A stretch of 32,392 nucleotides of DNA from Halococcus saccharolyticus DSM 5350 (GTDB lineage Archaea > Halobacteriota > Halobacteria > Halobacteriales > Halococcaceae). Below, piece after piece: positions 1-6,108 of the stretch. Where the stretch lies: positions 1 through 32,392 of the forward strand of contig NZ_AOMD01000019.1 in assembly GCF_000336915.1 (NCBI RefSeq). The letters run 5' to 3'. Position numbers and translations under genes: made by a program. The notes under the pieces were generated by a model. That model was not told the origin of the DNA, ran no database searches, and was given only the letters and a program-made list of their open reading frames with translations. Every line of letters starts with the position of its first letter. The stretch's first letter is position 1.

Positions 1-88
1 GGTCGACGATCGAGCGGTCGAGTTCGGGATCGTCGACCCGATCGAGGCGCTCCGTGACAGCCGCGCGGTCGATCTCGATGGCGGCCAT
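1..88 (-). CDS. MIP18/DUF59 metal-sulfur cluster assembly protein (C-terminus beyond window)
   Basis: Only the first 29 codons are present, reading off the left edge of the window. After a short acidic start comes VTERLDRVDDPELDRSIVD, which matches the opening of the DUF59/MIP18 (PaaD-like) domain, where a helix leads into a DPELxxxIVD motif. Proteins of this family assist iron-sulfur cluster assembly or transfer. The ATG overlaps the stop of the upstream amidohydrolase by one base (TGATG), so the two genes are almost certainly translationally coupled in one operon. DUF59 genes also occur beside amidohydrolases in bacterial propane/acetone monooxygenase operons, which is the contextual hint here. 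The domain call rests on a short N-terminus and would change if the missing part does not fit. Confidence 0.68.
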   Translation of the reverse strand, partial: MAAIEIDRAAVTERLDRVDDPELDRSIVD

Positions 89-1143
89 CAGTCGGCGGCG
101 GCCCCGCTCTCGTACTGATCCCCGAGATCGAACTGTGCGCTGATGTCGTCGTCGCGGAGCGCTTCCTTTTTGTCCTCGATGTCGATGTCGTAGAGTTCGG
201 CGGCGTTCTCGCCCATGATCTTCCGTTTCACCTCTGGCGTGAGCTCGACGCCGAACTCGTCGCGCTGGTCCTGGGTCATCTCCGCGTCCATCACGGCGGG
301 GATGAGCCAGTCGGGCTCCCAGATGGCGTAGTCCGAGCCGAAGAGGAGGTTGTCCTCGCCGACCCAGAACAGGAGTTCGCCGAGCATGTTCCCGAACTTC
401 CGGGGGCGATTTTGAGCAAAGGGTGCGACGACGGCCAACCCACCATACACGTTGGTCTCCTGGGTCGCGATGTGACAGAAGTCGTCGAGCCGCGGGTAGC
501 CGACGTGTTCGACGACGAAGTTGAGTTCCGGGAAGGAAGTGGCGGCGTCGTCGACGTCCGCCACGTCGAACGCGTCACGATTGAGGGGCCGGATCGTCGG
601 TCCCTTGTGTGGATGAATGTTCGTGATCCCGAGGTCGACACACTTTTCGAGGTACTCGAAGGCTTCCTCGGAGTCGAGCCGCCACCCCTTCGAGTCGCCC
701 CGCCACTCGGCGGTGTAGAGCTTCACGCCCTGGATGTCGTACTCCTCCTTCTGGCGTTCGAGTTCCCGGAGGCCGGCGTCGCCCTCGCGTGGATCGAACC
801 GCCCGTTGAGCACGAACCGTTCGGGGTACTCCTCGGCGAGTGCGGCGTTGTCGTCGACGGTGTTGAACCCCTCCGTGTAAAACTCGTTGAGGTGGGTCGG
901 CTGGAAAATCCCCATGTCGACATCGCCGTCCCGGAACAGGTTCTCGATCATCCGTTCCGAACTGTATTTGCGGTACTCCTCCAGGTCCCACTGGCGGTCG
1001 TCGGGGGTGAACGCCGCATGGTAGTCGTAGAAACACTGGATGAACTGTTCGCCGCCCTCGTGTTTGATGTTCGCCTCGCTCGCGTCCCAGTGGTGGACGT
1101 GGGAATCGATGACGAAGACGTCCTCGTCCTCGTGTCGGTACAT
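88..1143 (-). CDS. Amidohydrolase-2 family TIM-barrel hydrolase/decarboxylase-like enzyme
   Basis: The 351-residue protein opens with the strand VFVIDSHVHHWD, whose HxH pair (H15, H17) is the first metal-binding motif of the amidohydrolase superfamily. Later landmarks are NIHPHKGP, a VEHVGYPR segment and the FGSDYAIWEP motif, whose aspartate closes the metal site. The pattern is that of the Amidohydro_2 (ACMSD-like) group, which hydrolyses or decarboxylates carboxylated substrates; the substrate is unknown. I chose the ATG at 1143 because the motif begins a few residues later. The 41-residue upstream extension (NVSRPRNPPERGC...) is basic and unlike haloarchaeal coding sequence. A TATA-like element about 27 bases before this ATG fits a leaderless transcript. 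It is coupled to the MIP18-like gene and divergent from an alcohol dehydrogenase. Confidence 0.85.
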   Translation of the reverse strand: MYRHEDEDVFVIDSHVHHWDASEANIKHEGGEQFIQCFYDYHAAFTPDDRQWDLEEYRKYSSERMIENLFRDGDVDMGIFQPTHLNEFYTEGFNTVDDNAALAEEYPERFVLNGRFDPREGDAGLRELERQKEEYDIQGVKLYTAEWRGDSKGWRLDSEEAFEYLEKCVDLGITNIHPHKGPTIRPLNRDAFDVADVDDAATSFPELNFVVEHVGYPRLDDFCHIATQETNVYGGLAVVAPFAQNRPRKFGNMLGELLFWVGEDNLLFGSDYAIWEPDWLIPAVMDAEMTQDQRDEFGVELTPEVKRKIMGENAAELYDIDIEDKKEALRDDDISAQFDLGDQYESGAAAD

Positions 1144-1168
1144 GGCGGGTGGTGAATGGTCACACGCG

Positions 1169-1177
1169 ACAATATGT
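1169..1177 (-). promoter_or_regulatory. Putative TATA element of the amidohydrolase operon
   Basis: The minus strand reads CATATTG about 27 bases before the amidohydrolase ATG, the usual archaeal spacing for leaderless transcription. In the same divergent spacer, closer to the alcohol dehydrogenase, a 5-bp inverted repeat AGTGT-CATGA-ACACT (1253-1267) could be an operator, but it is short and may be chance. Confidence 0.4.
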
Positions 1178-1301
1178 CTTTGGTCATTTTTTTGGCATGA
1201 ATGGCTGCATCCTCGTTCGGGCGGGTTGCGCGGCCGACTGACGTTGCGGATGAGTGTCATGAACACTTTTGCCGATGACCGGAGTACTGGTGTGTGCTAC
1301 C

Positions 1302-2342
1302 ATGCAAGCAGCCAGGCTCCACGAGTACACCGAGGAGATGGACGACGCGCTCTCGATCGACGACGTCGACGCGCCACAGGTGAGCCAGGCCGACCACGTG
1401 GTCGTCGACGTCGAGGGCGCAGGCTGGTGTCAGACGGACAACCACGTCATCGAGGGGATGTGGGAGCAGTACATGCCCCAGGACCTCCCGATGACCCTCG
1501 GCCACGAGAACGCCGGCACGGTAGTCGAGGTCGGCGACGGCGTCTCGGTCGTTGAGGAGGGCGATCAGGTGATTTGCCACCCGGTGATGACCTGCGGAAC
1601 CTGCCGGCCCTGCCGGCTCGGCGAGGACATGTACTGCGAGAACGTCGCCTTCCCGGGGCTCTCGACCGACGGGGGGTTCGCCGAGTCGCTGCTCACGAAC
1701 GAGCGCGCCGTGATCCCGTTGCCCGACGGCGTCGACACGACCGACATCGCTCCCCACGCCGACGCTGGTATCACGGCCTACCACGCGGTGAAAAAGGCCG
1801 CTCGCGAGCTGAACCCAGGCGATCACGCGGTCGTCGTCGGTATCGGCGGACTCGGTCACATCGGGCTCCAGTGTCTCGACGCGATGAGCGCCGCCAGCAT
1901 CACCGCGGTCGATCTCAAGGACAGCGCGCTCGATCTGGCGACCGATCTCGGGGCGCACCACACCGTGAACCCCGACTCGACGGACGTCGCGAGCGAGATC
2001 GAATCGATCACCGACAGTGTCGGCGCACAGCAAGTGCTCGATTTCGTCGGCAGTGACGCGACCACCGCACTCGCGCCCGACGTCGTCGCGGCCGGCGGCG
2101 ACCACCACGTCGTCGGCTACGGCGGTCACGTCCACGAGCCTGCTCAGGCGCTCGTCAACGGCGAATTCAGCTACCGTGGCACGCTCGTCGGCCAGTACAC
2201 CGAGCTTCAGGAGCTCGTCGCACTGGTCGAACGCGGCGACGTCGATCTCCGGACCTCGCGGTACGGACTCGACGAGATCAACGACGTCGCCGCGAAGCTC
2301 GAGCACGGCGAGATCGAAGGGCGGGCCGTTATCACGCCCTGA
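1302..2342 (+). CDS. Zinc-dependent alcohol dehydrogenase (MDR family)
   Basis: A 346-residue medium-chain dehydrogenase/reductase. Catalytic-zinc residues are visible as C43 (GAGWCQTD) and H68-E69 (GHE). The structural-zinc cysteines are C98, C101, C104 and C112 in CGTCRPCRLGEDMYC. The nucleotide-binding fold carries GIGGLGHIG. The family oxidises alcohols or reduces aldehydes/ketones with NAD(P); the exact substrate is not evident. I used the ATG at 1302 because MQAARLHEY is the usual MDR beginning; the eleven codons before it look non-coding. Divergent placement 158 bp from an amidohydrolase and a MIP18-like gene recalls bacterial propane monooxygenase loci, where an alcohol dehydrogenase handles the 2-propanol. 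That substrate assignment is inference. Confidence 0.9.
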   Translation: MQAARLHEYTEEMDDALSIDDVDAPQVSQADHVVVDVEGAGWCQTDNHVIEGMWEQYMPQDLPMTLGHENAGTVVEVGDGVSVVEEGDQVICHPVMTCGTCRPCRLGEDMYCENVAFPGLSTDGGFAESLLTNERAVIPLPDGVDTTDIAPHADAGITAYHAVKKAARELNPGDHAVVVGIGGLGHIGLQCLDAMSAASITAVDLKDSALDLATDLGAHHTVNPDSTDVASEIESITDSVGAQQVLDFVGSDATTALAPDVVAAGGDHHVVGYGGHVHEPAQALVNGEFSYRGTLVGQYTELQELVALVERGDVDLRTSRYGLDEINDVAAKLEHGEIEGRAVITP

Positions 2343-2680: not shown

Positions 2681-3922
2681 TCAGATACCGAGGATCAGCG
2701 GCCCCATCAACACGCCCATCAAATGAACGCGCCGCGCGCGGAACTTCGCGGGGATCAGGCCGATCAGCGCGCTCGCACAAAACGCACCCACGCCGATCGG
2801 TCCGGCGAATAAGAACGCGAGTCCGAGCAGGAGACAGAGAACACCGATCGAGAGATGGGTGTACTCGACCCGTCCGACTGTCCGGAGATACCGGTCGCCG
2901 ACCCACGGCACCAGCACGAACCCGACGCCCGCCGCGAGGGCAACGCCCGAGAGCAGTAGGGGCAAATCGAGTGGCACATCCGTCGATTCGAGGGCAACTA
3001 GCACCCCGGTCCGGGGTGAACCAAGCGCGACAAGCGCGAACAACGCGAAAATCGTGTTACTTGTGTTGACACCGCTTGTCGCGACCAGAAAGCCACGTGC
3101 GCCGTCGTCCTCGGGTACTGCGGGCAGCGTCACCGTCGCCGCGACCGCTGCCGACACCCCTGGGAGATAGCCCACGATCGCGCCCGAGGCCGTCCCGACG
3201 ATCGCCGTCAACCCCACCGTGCGCCGCGGCGTCGTGACGGCGGCATCGGCCTGTTCGGGCACCCCGGCTCCGTCGAGTGCTTCGATGAGGACGGGTGCTC
3301 CAAATAGCCCCGCGAACAACGGCATCAGCATCCCGCCGGCGGCTAGCGGCGCGCTCGGCTCGATGTCGAGCGTGAGCCACCCGAGCCCCGCACTCAGGAG
3401 AAACGCGGCTGCACCCCCGATCCGCGCGACGTTCGACCGCTCGGTGACGACGAGGAAGACCGCGACGCCGCCCAAGACGAGCGGCAGATGCGCCCGTACC
3501 GTCGGATACACTGATACCATCAGTCGCGTCATCGGGATCGCGAGCGGCACCGCGAACGCGACCGCCAGCCCGCTCCCAAGCGCCGACAGGCGGAGCGCCT
3601 CCCGGCCGCGACCCTCGATTACCAGTCGATGGCCTGGCAGCGCCGAGGCCGCCATCGCGGCGTCGGGTACCCCGAGTGCGAGTGCCGGAACCACGTCGAG
3701 GAACGTGTGCGTCACGCCAGCAGCGAGCATTGCCGCCCCGACGTAGAGCGCCGGTCCCGGAACCTGCGGGGCGGCTGCCGCCAACAGCAGCGCGAAGTTG
3801 TTGGCGTGGAGTCCGGGCACGAGGCCGCTCACCGTTCCGAGTGCGATCCCACCGAGGACGAACCCGAGCGCCGGGAGTGCGGTTTCGGGCGCGACCACGA
3901 CGCTCCCGCCGAACGGACCCAT
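2681..3922 (-). CDS. TctA/DUF112-type membrane permease
   Basis: A 413-residue, very hydrophobic protein with roughly ten predicted membrane segments. It shows two related motifs typical of the TctA fold: GLVPGLHANNFALLL near residues 33-47 and GYLPGVSAA in the second half, each followed by an Asn/Thr-rich re-entrant-like stretch (TSGVNTSNTIFAL). In bacteria TctA is the large subunit of tripartite tricarboxylate transporters. Archaea commonly carry it alone, and no TctB or TctC homologue is present here either, so the substrate and energy coupling are unknown. It ends facing the alcohol dehydrogenase across the hairpin array. The start at 3922 gives a short N-terminal tail before the first membrane segment; no better alternative is evident. 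Confidence 0.78.
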   Translation of the reverse strand: MGPFGGSVVVAPETALPALGFVLGGIALGTVSGLVPGLHANNFALLLAAAAPQVPGPALYVGAAMLAAGVTHTFLDVVPALALGVPDAAMAASALPGHRLVIEGRGREALRLSALGSGLAVAFAVPLAIPMTRLMVSVYPTVRAHLPLVLGGVAVFLVVTERSNVARIGGAAAFLLSAGLGWLTLDIEPSAPLAAGGMLMPLFAGLFGAPVLIEALDGAGVPEQADAAVTTPRRTVGLTAIVGTASGAIVGYLPGVSAAVAATVTLPAVPEDDGARGFLVATSGVNTSNTIFALFALVALGSPRTGVLVALESTDVPLDLPLLLSGVALAAGVGFVLVPWVGDRYLRTVGRVEYTHLSIGVLCLLLGLAFLFAGPIGVGAFCASALIGLIPAKFRARRVHLMGVLMGPLILGI

Positions 3923-3978
3923 TCACCCCGCGGTGGCTGCGTCCCGGTATGTAAACGCTCGCACGGCTATCGGGTCGG

Positions 3979-4008
3979 TGAAAGAAAAGTGTGGGTCGAA
4001 CTGACCGC
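3979..4008 (-). terminator. Terminator after the L12 gene
   Basis: Just past the L12 stop, the minus strand has a small stem (GGTC-AGTTC-GACC, 3994-4006) followed by the T-rich tract TTTTCTTT (about 3981-3989). Archaeal termination mainly needs the T-tract; the weak stem may be incidental. It would end the L1-L10-L12 transcript before the TctA-like gene. Confidence 0.5.
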
Positions 4009-4011
4009 CGT

Positions 4012-4362
4012 TCAGCCGAAGAGTTCGCCGAGACCCTCGCCGCCAGCGTCGTCGTCCTCGTCGTCGTCCGCTTCGGCTTCCTCGGCTTCCTCTTCCTCGG
4101 CTTCGTCGGCCTCGTCGGCGTCGGCCTCGCCGCCAGCCCCGCCGGCTGCTGCGCCGCCCGCACCGCCAGCGCCGCCTGCGGGCACCGCGGCGGCCTGGTC
4201 GACCGCTTCCTCGATGTCGACGTCTTCGAGCGCCGCGACGAGCGCCTTCACACGCGACTCCTCGACGTCCGCACCGGCCGCGTCGAGCACGTCGGTCAGG
4301 TTGTCTTCGTTGATCTCTTCGTCCGTCTCGTTCAGGATGAGTGCTGCGTAAACGTATTCCAT
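4012..4362 (-). CDS. rpl12: 50S ribosomal protein L12 (P1, stalk protein)
   Basis: A 116-residue archaeal P1/L12. The first 60 residues ([12 protein letters not shown]... through [11 protein letters not shown]) form the helical dimerisation domain that docks on L10. A Gly/Ala-rich hinge (residues about 61-80) follows, then an extremely acidic Glu/Asp run ending in GLGELFG. That conserved tail contacts translation factors such as aEF2, and L10 ends in nearly the same sequence (GLGEMFG). The gene is last in the L1-L10-L12 operon, 42 bases after L10, in the standard haloarchaeal order. A T-rich tract follows the stop. Confidence 0.97.
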
Positions 4363-4404
4363 TGTTGTGGTGTTGTGGGTTGGGGTGTCTGTTTCGTGAT
4401 CGAG

Positions 4405-5469
4405 TCAGCCGAACATCTCACCGAGACCAGCGCCCGCGTCGCCGTCGTCGTCATCGTCGGACTCGTCGTCCGCGTCGGCATCGGGCTCGGTCTCCGCGTC
4501 GGCCTCGTCGTCGTTCGATTCGTCTGCGTCCGCATCCGCGCCTGCGTCAGCCGACTCCTCGACGACCTGCTCGCGGAGCTCCTCGGGGAGGGCCTCGTCG
4601 TCGTCGATGTGGGCCGCGAGCGCACGGACCTGTGCGTCCGCCTTGCTCACGAGCTCGTCGGCGATGTCGGGGCTCTCGATCGCGGCGTGGACGCCGAGGC
4701 TCCGCGCCTCGGTGCTCGCCTGGCCGAGCAGCGCGCCGGCCGTGCGATCGGTCGGATAGACCGCGTTGATCGAGAGGTTTCGAGCGCGAGCGGCCGCCGC
4801 CTCGACGTCCGCACGGTACTCGTCGACGTCGATCGCGAGCTCGTCGGGCTCGAACAGAATGCCGTCGGCGTAGACGGTCTTGAGGTCGAGTCCGACCTCC
4901 TTCGGCTCGATCCCGAGTTCGCCGAGCACGTTCGCGAGCTGGGCGGAGACCTCCTCGCCTTCCTCGAGAACAGTGGAATCCTCGGTGACGTGGATCGAGC
5001 CGTCCATGATCCGGGCGGCTGCGCCGACCTGCTGGAGCTCTCCGACGAACGGACCGGGATCGACGCCGGTGTCGCTCTCGGGGATCGTGATCGCGTTCGG
5101 CGCGATCTCGCCCGCGTTGATCGGGGCGGGCGTCTTCGACGCCTCCAGCTGGCGATAGAGCCCGAACGGGTTCTCGTCAGTACCGATCAGCCCGACCTGC
5201 CCTTCGATCTCGCTCGTGAGATCCGCGACGCCCTCGCCGGCCGCCTCGAGCGCACGCACGAGCAGGGTGTTCCGGGAGACTCGAAGCTCGGCCTCGCCGT
5301 GGAGCTCCCGGCGCATCGCCTGGAGCTGGCGGCTCGGGATCCCGCCGATCGAGACGACGCCGACGCTCTCGTAGGTCTCGATCAAGTCGGCGAGGTCCGC
5401 GACCTCCTCGCGCTTCCACTCCGGGATCGCCTCGGTCTGCCGGTCGCCCGCCTCGCTCTCGGCGGACAT
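4405..5469 (-). CDS. rpl10: 50S ribosomal protein L10 (P0, stalk base)
   Basis: A 354-residue archaeal uL10/P0. The N-terminal rRNA-binding domain shows the characteristic series [29 protein letters not shown] and [13 protein letters not shown]. The central domain and the helical spine that carries L12 dimers follow, and a long Asp/Glu-rich tail ends in GAGLGEMFG. Its ATG directly abuts the L1 stop (TAA then ATG, no gap), so translation is probably coupled. The length agrees with other haloarchaeal P0 proteins. Confidence 0.97.
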
Positions 5470-6108
5470 TTAGGCCACCTCCACGGAGGGCCCCATCGTC
5501 GTCTTGACGTACACCGTATCGATGTTGAGGGGTCCCTTCTCGAGGTCGGCCTCGAGTCGCCGGACGATGACGTCGATGTTGTCCGCGATCTCCGCGGCGG
5601 ACATGTCGTCGGCACCGACTCGGGTGTGGAAGGTTCGCCGGTCGCGGCTCCGGAGCTGAACGGTGTTTTTCATCCGTTCGATGGTCTCCACCACGTCGTC
5701 GTCGGGCTGGAGTGGGGTCGGCATCTTCCCCCGAGGACCGAGAACGGTCCCGAGGTAGCGACCGATGTCCTGCATCATGCTCGCTTCGGCGATGAAGAAG
5801 TCGGTCTCGCCAGCGAGGTCCTTCGCCTCGTCGTCATCGTCGCCAAGCTCCTCGAGATCGTCGCCGTCGAGTACGTCGTCGGCGACCTCCTCTGCCCGGA
5901 GGGCGGTCTCGCCCTCGGCGAAGACCACGATCCGTGTCTCCTGGCCGGTTCCTTCCGGAAGAACGATACTCTCGTCGACGCGGTTCGATGGGTCGTTGAG
6001 GTCGAGATCGCGCAGGTTGACCGCGAGGTCCACCGTCTCACTGAAGTTCCGCGGTGGGGCCTCGTCAAGCGCGCGCGTCACGGCCTCCTCTATGTCCTGA
6101 TCTGCCAT
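5470..6108 (-). CDS. rpl1: 50S ribosomal protein L1
   Basis: A 212-residue uL1, first gene of the L1-L10-L12 operon. Recognisable family segments are [16 protein letters not shown] near the N-terminus, [28 protein letters not shown] in the middle (the GPRGKMP motif is nearly universal) and a C-terminal [14 protein letters not shown]1 binds helices 76-78 of 23S rRNA at the E site. In archaea it also represses its own operon by binding a mimic of that rRNA site in the mRNA. The start is fixed by a strong Shine-Dalgarno (GGAGGTGG) about five bases upstream. Confidence 0.97.

Follow-up and report, generated by a model that had tools for sequence, protein, structure and literature searches.

The accessory genes of propane and acetone monooxygenase operons

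Bacterial operons for the diiron monooxygenases (SDIMOs) of propane and acetone oxidation carry a set of accessory genes, and the order published after prmABCD is a metal-dependent hydrolase, a metal-sulfur cluster biosynthetic enzyme, an alcohol dehydrogenase (ADH) and GroEL (PMC4428276). An accessory gene order is also given in PMC6849523, according to which the first three accessory genes of Mycobacterium sp. AT1 are located away from the SDIMO, while MSMEG_1975-1977 are tabulated with SDIMO genes in an expression table (PMC5445863), amidohydrolase and iron-sulfur cluster assembly genes are labelled in SDIMO operons (PMC9213486), and an isopropanol dehydrogenase function is putatively assigned to Adh1 of the Mim cluster (PMC7176365). 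No role for the amidohydrolase and the DUF59 protein of these operons is given in the papers that we consulted. Here we analyse the same three gene types at the start of a 32,392-nucleotide stretch of Halococcus saccharolyticus DSM 5350, which is the entire contig NZ_AOMD01000019.1 (C19) and is referred to as the window. An earlier note had proposed a haloarchaeal short-alkane or ketone oxidation locus, provided that a diiron monooxygenase lies beyond the left edge.

We found that the divergent ADH and the amidohydrolase-DUF59 pair are conserved as a unit in haloarchaea and that homologous bacterial sets exist both with and without an SDIMO; the locus itself is almost certainly not an SDIMO locus. 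The amidohydrolase (351 aa; 88-1143, minus strand) was confirmed by PF04909 at 161 bits and the medium-chain zinc ADH (346 aa; 1302-2342, plus strand) by PF08240 at 92 bits and PF00107 at 77 bits. The DUF59 (MIP18-like) gene is interrupted by the end of the contig, so that the window holds only its first 29 codons (1-88, minus strand), and its assignment comes from intact haloarchaeal relatives, on which PF01883 scores 48-51 bits. Its ATG (88-86) shares one base with the amidohydrolase stop codon. The trio consists of two divergent transcription units, the ADH on the plus strand and the amidohydrolase and DUF59 on the minus strand, separated by an intergenic region of 158 bases (1144-1301, no strand); because the ADH is divergent, the trio does not form a single operon. 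Among 23 relatives that were extracted, ADH and amidohydrolase are 95-187 bases apart in 21, and 332 and 248 bases apart in the remaining two. An alternative TTG start of the ADH is present at 1269, upstream of the start at 1302, and no clear shared operator was seen in the divergent promoter region, which has A/T-rich stretches.

The comparison with the bacterial operons was well founded as far as the gene types go. The amidohydrolase, DUF59 and Adh1 genes of the prm/mim (group V SDIMO) operons are homologous to the trio and show the same pairing and tight amidohydrolase-DUF59 order, and the homologues found beside SDIMO genes are 52-58% (amidohydrolase) and 44-48% (ADH) identical. The window differs from these operons in the lack of genes for a hydroxylase, reductase, coupling protein or GroEL-like chaperonin, in an ADH that is divergent and not in line, and in an amidohydrolase that belongs to a separate clade.

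Search for a diiron monooxygenase

The diiron hydroxylase model PF02332 gave zero matches in the H. saccharolyticus genome, for which the assembly is listed as 99.6% complete. The control genomes gave no match in this own-genome search; the same model did match 4 of 391 Halobacteria genomes, and therefore the search works. No SDIMO component or GroEL-like gene was found in the whole window (31 kb to the right) or in 19 kb of C18 on the left, the genome outside these flanks not having been searched for a GroEL-like gene, and tblastn with bacterial reductase and MmoB proteins found no reductase or coupling protein gene at the locus or at any of 29 haloarchaeal loci carrying the module. In the same draw of 391 Halobacteria genomes, the amidohydrolase (E at most 1e-60) was present in 123 and an SDIMO (PF02332) in four, and no genome belongs to both sets; in the four with an SDIMO, the module is absent from the SDIMO locus and the amidohydrolase gives no match at E 1e-60. 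With no shared genomes and no SDIMO part at any of the 29 module loci, linkage of the module to an SDIMO in haloarchaea was rejected, and the monooxygenase envisaged in the earlier note, together with the short-alkane or ketone oxidation locus built on it, finds no support leftward, in the genome or in the relatives.

The diiron monooxygenase loci of the four Halobacteria genomes are L078 (G120:C1:2866000-2885999), L079, L080 and L081. L078, the one of the four that we annotated, includes IclR regulators, a catechol-dioxygenase-like (extradiol-type) gene and components of the TmoB and Rieske types, and because of these neighbours its SDIMO resembles, instead of the propane type, toluene monooxygenase (toluene-4-monooxygenase-like, of the aromatic type).

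Conservation of the module in haloarchaea

Of the 29 haloarchaeal loci examined, 27 come from genomes and two from named plasmids, and the counts given here are from tblastn. Named records that carry the module include those of Halorarius halobius ZY10 and Halomicrococcus gelatinilyticus GSLN9. The amidohydrolase and DUF59 genes are adjacent in all 29 loci, a divergent ADH is present in 24 (in one of these, L049, about 1.3 kb off), and an SDIMO or GroEL-like gene is present in none. Since the pair is kept in 29/29 loci and the divergent ADH in 24/29, the trio is more than a chance association. We also clustered the open reading frames (ORFs) around the trio, using 32 archaeal loci and 28 bacterial ones that are SDIMO-free. 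Some of the clustered ORFs were wrong-frame shadows, two clusters being antisense to DUF59, so the tblastn counts were preferred to those from clustering. No further broadly conserved neighbour was found: only the trio spans the set, and every other ORF cluster occurs in at most six loci. Our literature searches found no earlier description of the haloarchaeal module. In L187 (G334:C2:378000-396999) the amidohydrolase is a divergent copy (55% identical) and the ADH runs in the same direction, the two adjoining genes that, by their sequences only, would be nitrilase-like and glyoxalase/dioxygenase-like.

With the DUF59 protein of a genome of the same genus as query, we located the start of the DUF59 gene in C19 and its remaining 3' part at the right-hand terminus of contig C18 of the same genome (G000:C18:246927-247433 of 247475). 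C18 and C19 are thus neighbours, with the same DUF59 gene broken at both contig ends and about 32 codons (about 100 bases) absent between them. The join is supported by two loci of the same genus, L032 and L033, in which the genes after DUF59 resemble those in C18: a photolyase-like protein of 466-467 aa, a 'MTRVIVVGGGLAGL...' oxidoreductase and a 'METTAAFDGLECTDCG...' protein. Photolyase and the like are names that we gave to this flank on reading the sequences, not from a family search, and the C18 genes beyond DUF59 are unrelated to the trio. On the right of the trio (2681-6108), the window contains a TctA-family protein (PF01970), followed by what appear, from reading the sequence, to be genes for ribosomal stalk L12, L10 and L1.

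Bacterial relatives and phylogeny

The amidohydrolases with 52-58% identity are plasmid-borne and sit in SDIMO operons of Caballeronia, Aminobacter and Paracoccus in the order alpha, reductase, beta, MmoB, amidohydrolase, DUF59 and GroEL, with an ADH near; on a Rhodococcus plasmid (JS3073) the order is the actinobacterial one, alpha, reductase, beta, MmoB, ADH-like gene, amidohydrolase, DUF59, ADH and GroEL. In Thermomicrobium roseum (DUF59-amidohydrolase-ADH) and in Peribacillus (amidohydrolase-DUF59), SDIMO genes are unlisted within 9 kb in gene tables that are incomplete, and tblastn agrees. For a broader view we used the best 80 of at least 571 bacterial relatives, ranked against an alignment headed by the Thermomicrobium protein, so that the proportions which follow are not prevalences. 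SDIMO or GroEL-like genes accompany 55 of the 80 loci, 53 of them with an alpha subunit; the other two called SDIMO-linked are L113, with beta and MmoB, and L131, a short contig on which a GroEL-like gene is the sole such component. The amidohydrolase and DUF59 genes are paired in 79 of the 80, the last being cut by a contig end. Among the 25 SDIMO-free loci, DUF59 is kept in 24 and the ADH in 17, and such copies were found in Chloroflexota, Poribacteria, Bacillota and Acidiphilium. The SDIMO-free sets of Thermomicrobium, Thermoflexus, Chloroflexus, Poribacteria and Bacillaceae are like the window in combining DUF59 and amidohydrolase, usually with an ADH and with no SDIMO in reach, but differ from it in that all genes point in one direction, DUF59 coming first in 7 of 24. 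The window amidohydrolase is 50-61% identical to those of 28 bacterial rows.

Other bacterial arrangements were also seen. In L132 (2957-13429), from a metagenome-assembled genome of Rhodospirillales, ADH-amidohydrolase-DUF59 lies upstream of the SDIMO genes and not in the space from MmoB to GroEL, which suggests that the module may be moved in one piece. L182 (8980-12269), on a plasmid of Rhizobium sp. N324, has amidohydrolase-DUF59 and then a gene annotated as lactoylglutathione lyase, no SDIMO listed nearby, and a long branch in the tree. Iron ABC transporter genes adjoin the Thermomicrobium copy.

For the amidohydrolase tree 140 rows were collected, of which 56 and 3 outgroup rows (59) were kept after removal of near-duplicates. 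The haloarchaeal amidohydrolases form one clade (support 96/99), and the SDIMO-linked rows form two groups, one actinobacterial and the other proteobacterial, that are interspersed with SDIMO-free rows of Chloroflexota, Poribacteria and Bacillota. A single clade of all SDIMO-linked rows was rejected in the approximately unbiased (AU) test (p 3e-5), as was a group of the haloarchaeal rows with the two actinobacterial SDIMO-linked rows (p 0.0065); both tests were carried out with the tree already known, while the prm/mim clade had been named beforehand. Thus membership of the H. saccharolyticus protein in a prm/mim-associated clade is borne out by the phylogeny no more than an SDIMO is by the neighbouring genes, the M. 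smegmatis and Gordonia proteins themselves not being in the tree. Because the base of the ingroup is unresolved in this tree, the direction of change, recruitment into SDIMO operons or loss from them, is only what we infer. In a quick tree of the ADHs, where the only non-module sequences are 14 haloarchaeal paralogues, the module ADHs are apart from these paralogues and the haloarchaeal module ADHs form one clade (95).

Properties of the three proteins

The nearest solved structure to the ADH is 1h2b (335 bits), which we take to be Aeropyrum ADH, followed by several ADH entries at 187-200 bits, one of which is ADH-A of Rhodococcus ruber, a secondary-alcohol enzyme (191 bits). These secondary-alcohol dehydrogenases belong to the same zinc ADH family as the window protein over the full length, and from these matches it is probably a secondary-alcohol dehydrogenase.

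The predicted model of the amidohydrolase (pLDDT 90.7) has a barrel fold, and its closest match is the uncharacterised 3irs (Z 26.7, root-mean-square deviation (rmsd) 2.9, 270 aligned), with decarboxylases and ACMSD at Z 20-22.6. Five residues, H15, H17, H177, H213 and D271, do not vary among the 29 sequences compared and are placed, by our count, at or just past strands 1 (H15/H17), 5, 6 and 8. The HxH/H/H/D pattern of metal ligands is that of ACMSD, and because the five residues follow it we regard them as candidate metal ligands. By family score, modelled barrel fold and this pattern, the protein would be of the PF04909 mononuclear type. The decarboxylases and hydrolases of this family (ACMSD and the 5-carboxyvanillate and 2,3-dihydroxybenzoate decarboxylases) share the barrel and the HxH/H/H/D residues, but in structural alignments the window protein is only 14-20% identical to them. 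A PDB sequence search with a profile of 8 members gave nothing at E 0.001 or better, a profile of 29 members reached 3irs at E 0.0012, and NCBIfam and PHROGs contain no family for the amidohydrolase.

For DUF59 a bacterial member (L124:11021-11731) was modelled (pLDDT 94.5). The N-terminal domain is CIAO2B-like (Z 11.2, rmsd 3.5, 109 aligned), and an extra C-terminal part of about 150 residues is helical. On the numbering of this member, C54 in the DUF59 domain and C224 in the C-terminal helix are invariant in 28 bacterial rows. The protein therefore shares the fold of the N-terminal domain and the conserved Cys with CIAO2B/MIP18, SufT and PaaD proteins, and differs from them in the extra helical part with a second invariant Cys.

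Weighing the alternative explanations

The reading that we favour, with belief and doubt in about equal measure, is a self-contained module of three genes, independent of any diiron monooxygenase. That the window is instead a haloarchaeal short-alkane or ketone monooxygenase locus, its hydroxylase lying past the left edge, would agree with the accessory gene types, which are the same as in the bacterial SDIMO operons and in the published prmABCD order (PMC4428276); this is hardly conceivable given a genome free of PF02332 matches, although the model found four other Halobacteria, empty flanks on both sides and gene sets that are disjoint in 391 genomes. More room is left, although we consider it improbable, for an SDIMO operon whose hydroxylase was lost and whose remnant is now decaying or repurposed. 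Loss or operon splitting seems to occur in some lineages, as suggested by Acidiphilium rows without SDIMO that nest beside an SDIMO-linked Acidisphaera row and by the trio being away from the SDIMO in Mycobacterium sp. AT1 (PMC6849523). The haloarchaeal clade, however, stands apart from the SDIMO-linked groups, most of the 123 genomes have intact genes with 65-80% identity, and the candidate ligand residues are invariant.

Two other explanations concern the proteins. AibH2 has been described as a dinuclear oxygenase in the same Pfam family as the amidohydrolase (PMC10811679, PMC7782822, PMC10401708), and our protein might likewise be a dinuclear oxygenase (ARO) such as PtmU3, AibH2 or SfbO, with iron supplied by DUF59. 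The AROs belong to PF04909 (PMC10811679), SfbO (8sm6) is among the fold matches of the model, and the gene of an iron-type partner protein is adjacent. Yet where AibH2 has the ligand His340, three residues past the last (beta-8) Asp (PMC7782822), the position matched by motif and not by superposition is here the nearly invariant I274; the beta-6 site is a His, preceded by Glu, and not Glu alone; and the conserved neighbours include neither a reductase nor a Rieske gene. We consider this explanation very improbable. There is a slightly better, still slim chance that DUF59 acts generally in Fe-S assembly, with the amidohydrolase as a bystander, the pair being kept for metal homeostasis. The match of the DUF59 domain to CIAO2B-type proteins and the iron transporter beside the Thermomicrobium copy are in its favour, but other loci do not share this transporter, the scores of bacterial DUF59 proteins are far under the curated PaaD and SUF model cut-offs, and the pair stays together in every haloarchaeal locus and in all but one truncated bacterial locus.

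Several observations weigh against the self-contained module as well. The ADH is absent from L047, L048, L055, L056 and L059 (a contig ends near the last of these), and genome G021 has an ADH ortholog (78%) without the amidohydrolase; the ADH is therefore not obligatory. Acetone carboxylase (PF08882), a possible downstream step, was not enriched with the module (14/37 versus 123/391, p 0.24), and the association became significant only at a cut chosen afterwards (10/14, p 0.002). In the Peribacillus amidohydrolase Ala replaces the second His of HxH, and of the 25 bacterial loci without an SDIMO only 12 are flanked on each side by 5 kb or more of contig. Finally, substrate and activity are what we infer.

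Proposed role of the module

In the self-contained module, the ADH would oxidise small secondary alcohols to ketones with NAD, as its sequence matches suggest, and the amidohydrolase may be a mononuclear metal enzyme of decarboxylase or hydrolase type in the same small-molecule pathway. The two-domain DUF59 protein, an Fe-S-assembly-type domain joined to a helical one, would be the dedicated partner of the amidohydrolase, probably for metal loading or stability, since it is the amidohydrolase-DUF59 pair that stays together. Perhaps the propane and acetone SDIMO operons carry the module because their products, 2-propanol and acetone, would feed into it. These enzymatic details, that is substrate, direction and the role of the partner, are tentative and we would not be surprised to see them revised. 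Somewhat more doubtful still is the broader picture in which amidohydrolase-DUF59 would be an old independent system of small secondary-alcohol and ketone metabolism in archaea and bacteria, with DUF59 as its dedicated metal-loading or structural partner, taken up at least twice by propane and acetone monooxygenase operons.

The occurrence of the module without a monooxygenase in about a third of the sampled haloarchaea argues against the accessory proteins being hydroxylase-assembly factors. It is also a warning that alkane oxidation should not be called from these accessory genes alone, and haloarchaea would let the role of the amidohydrolase and DUF59 be tested free of the monooxygenase.

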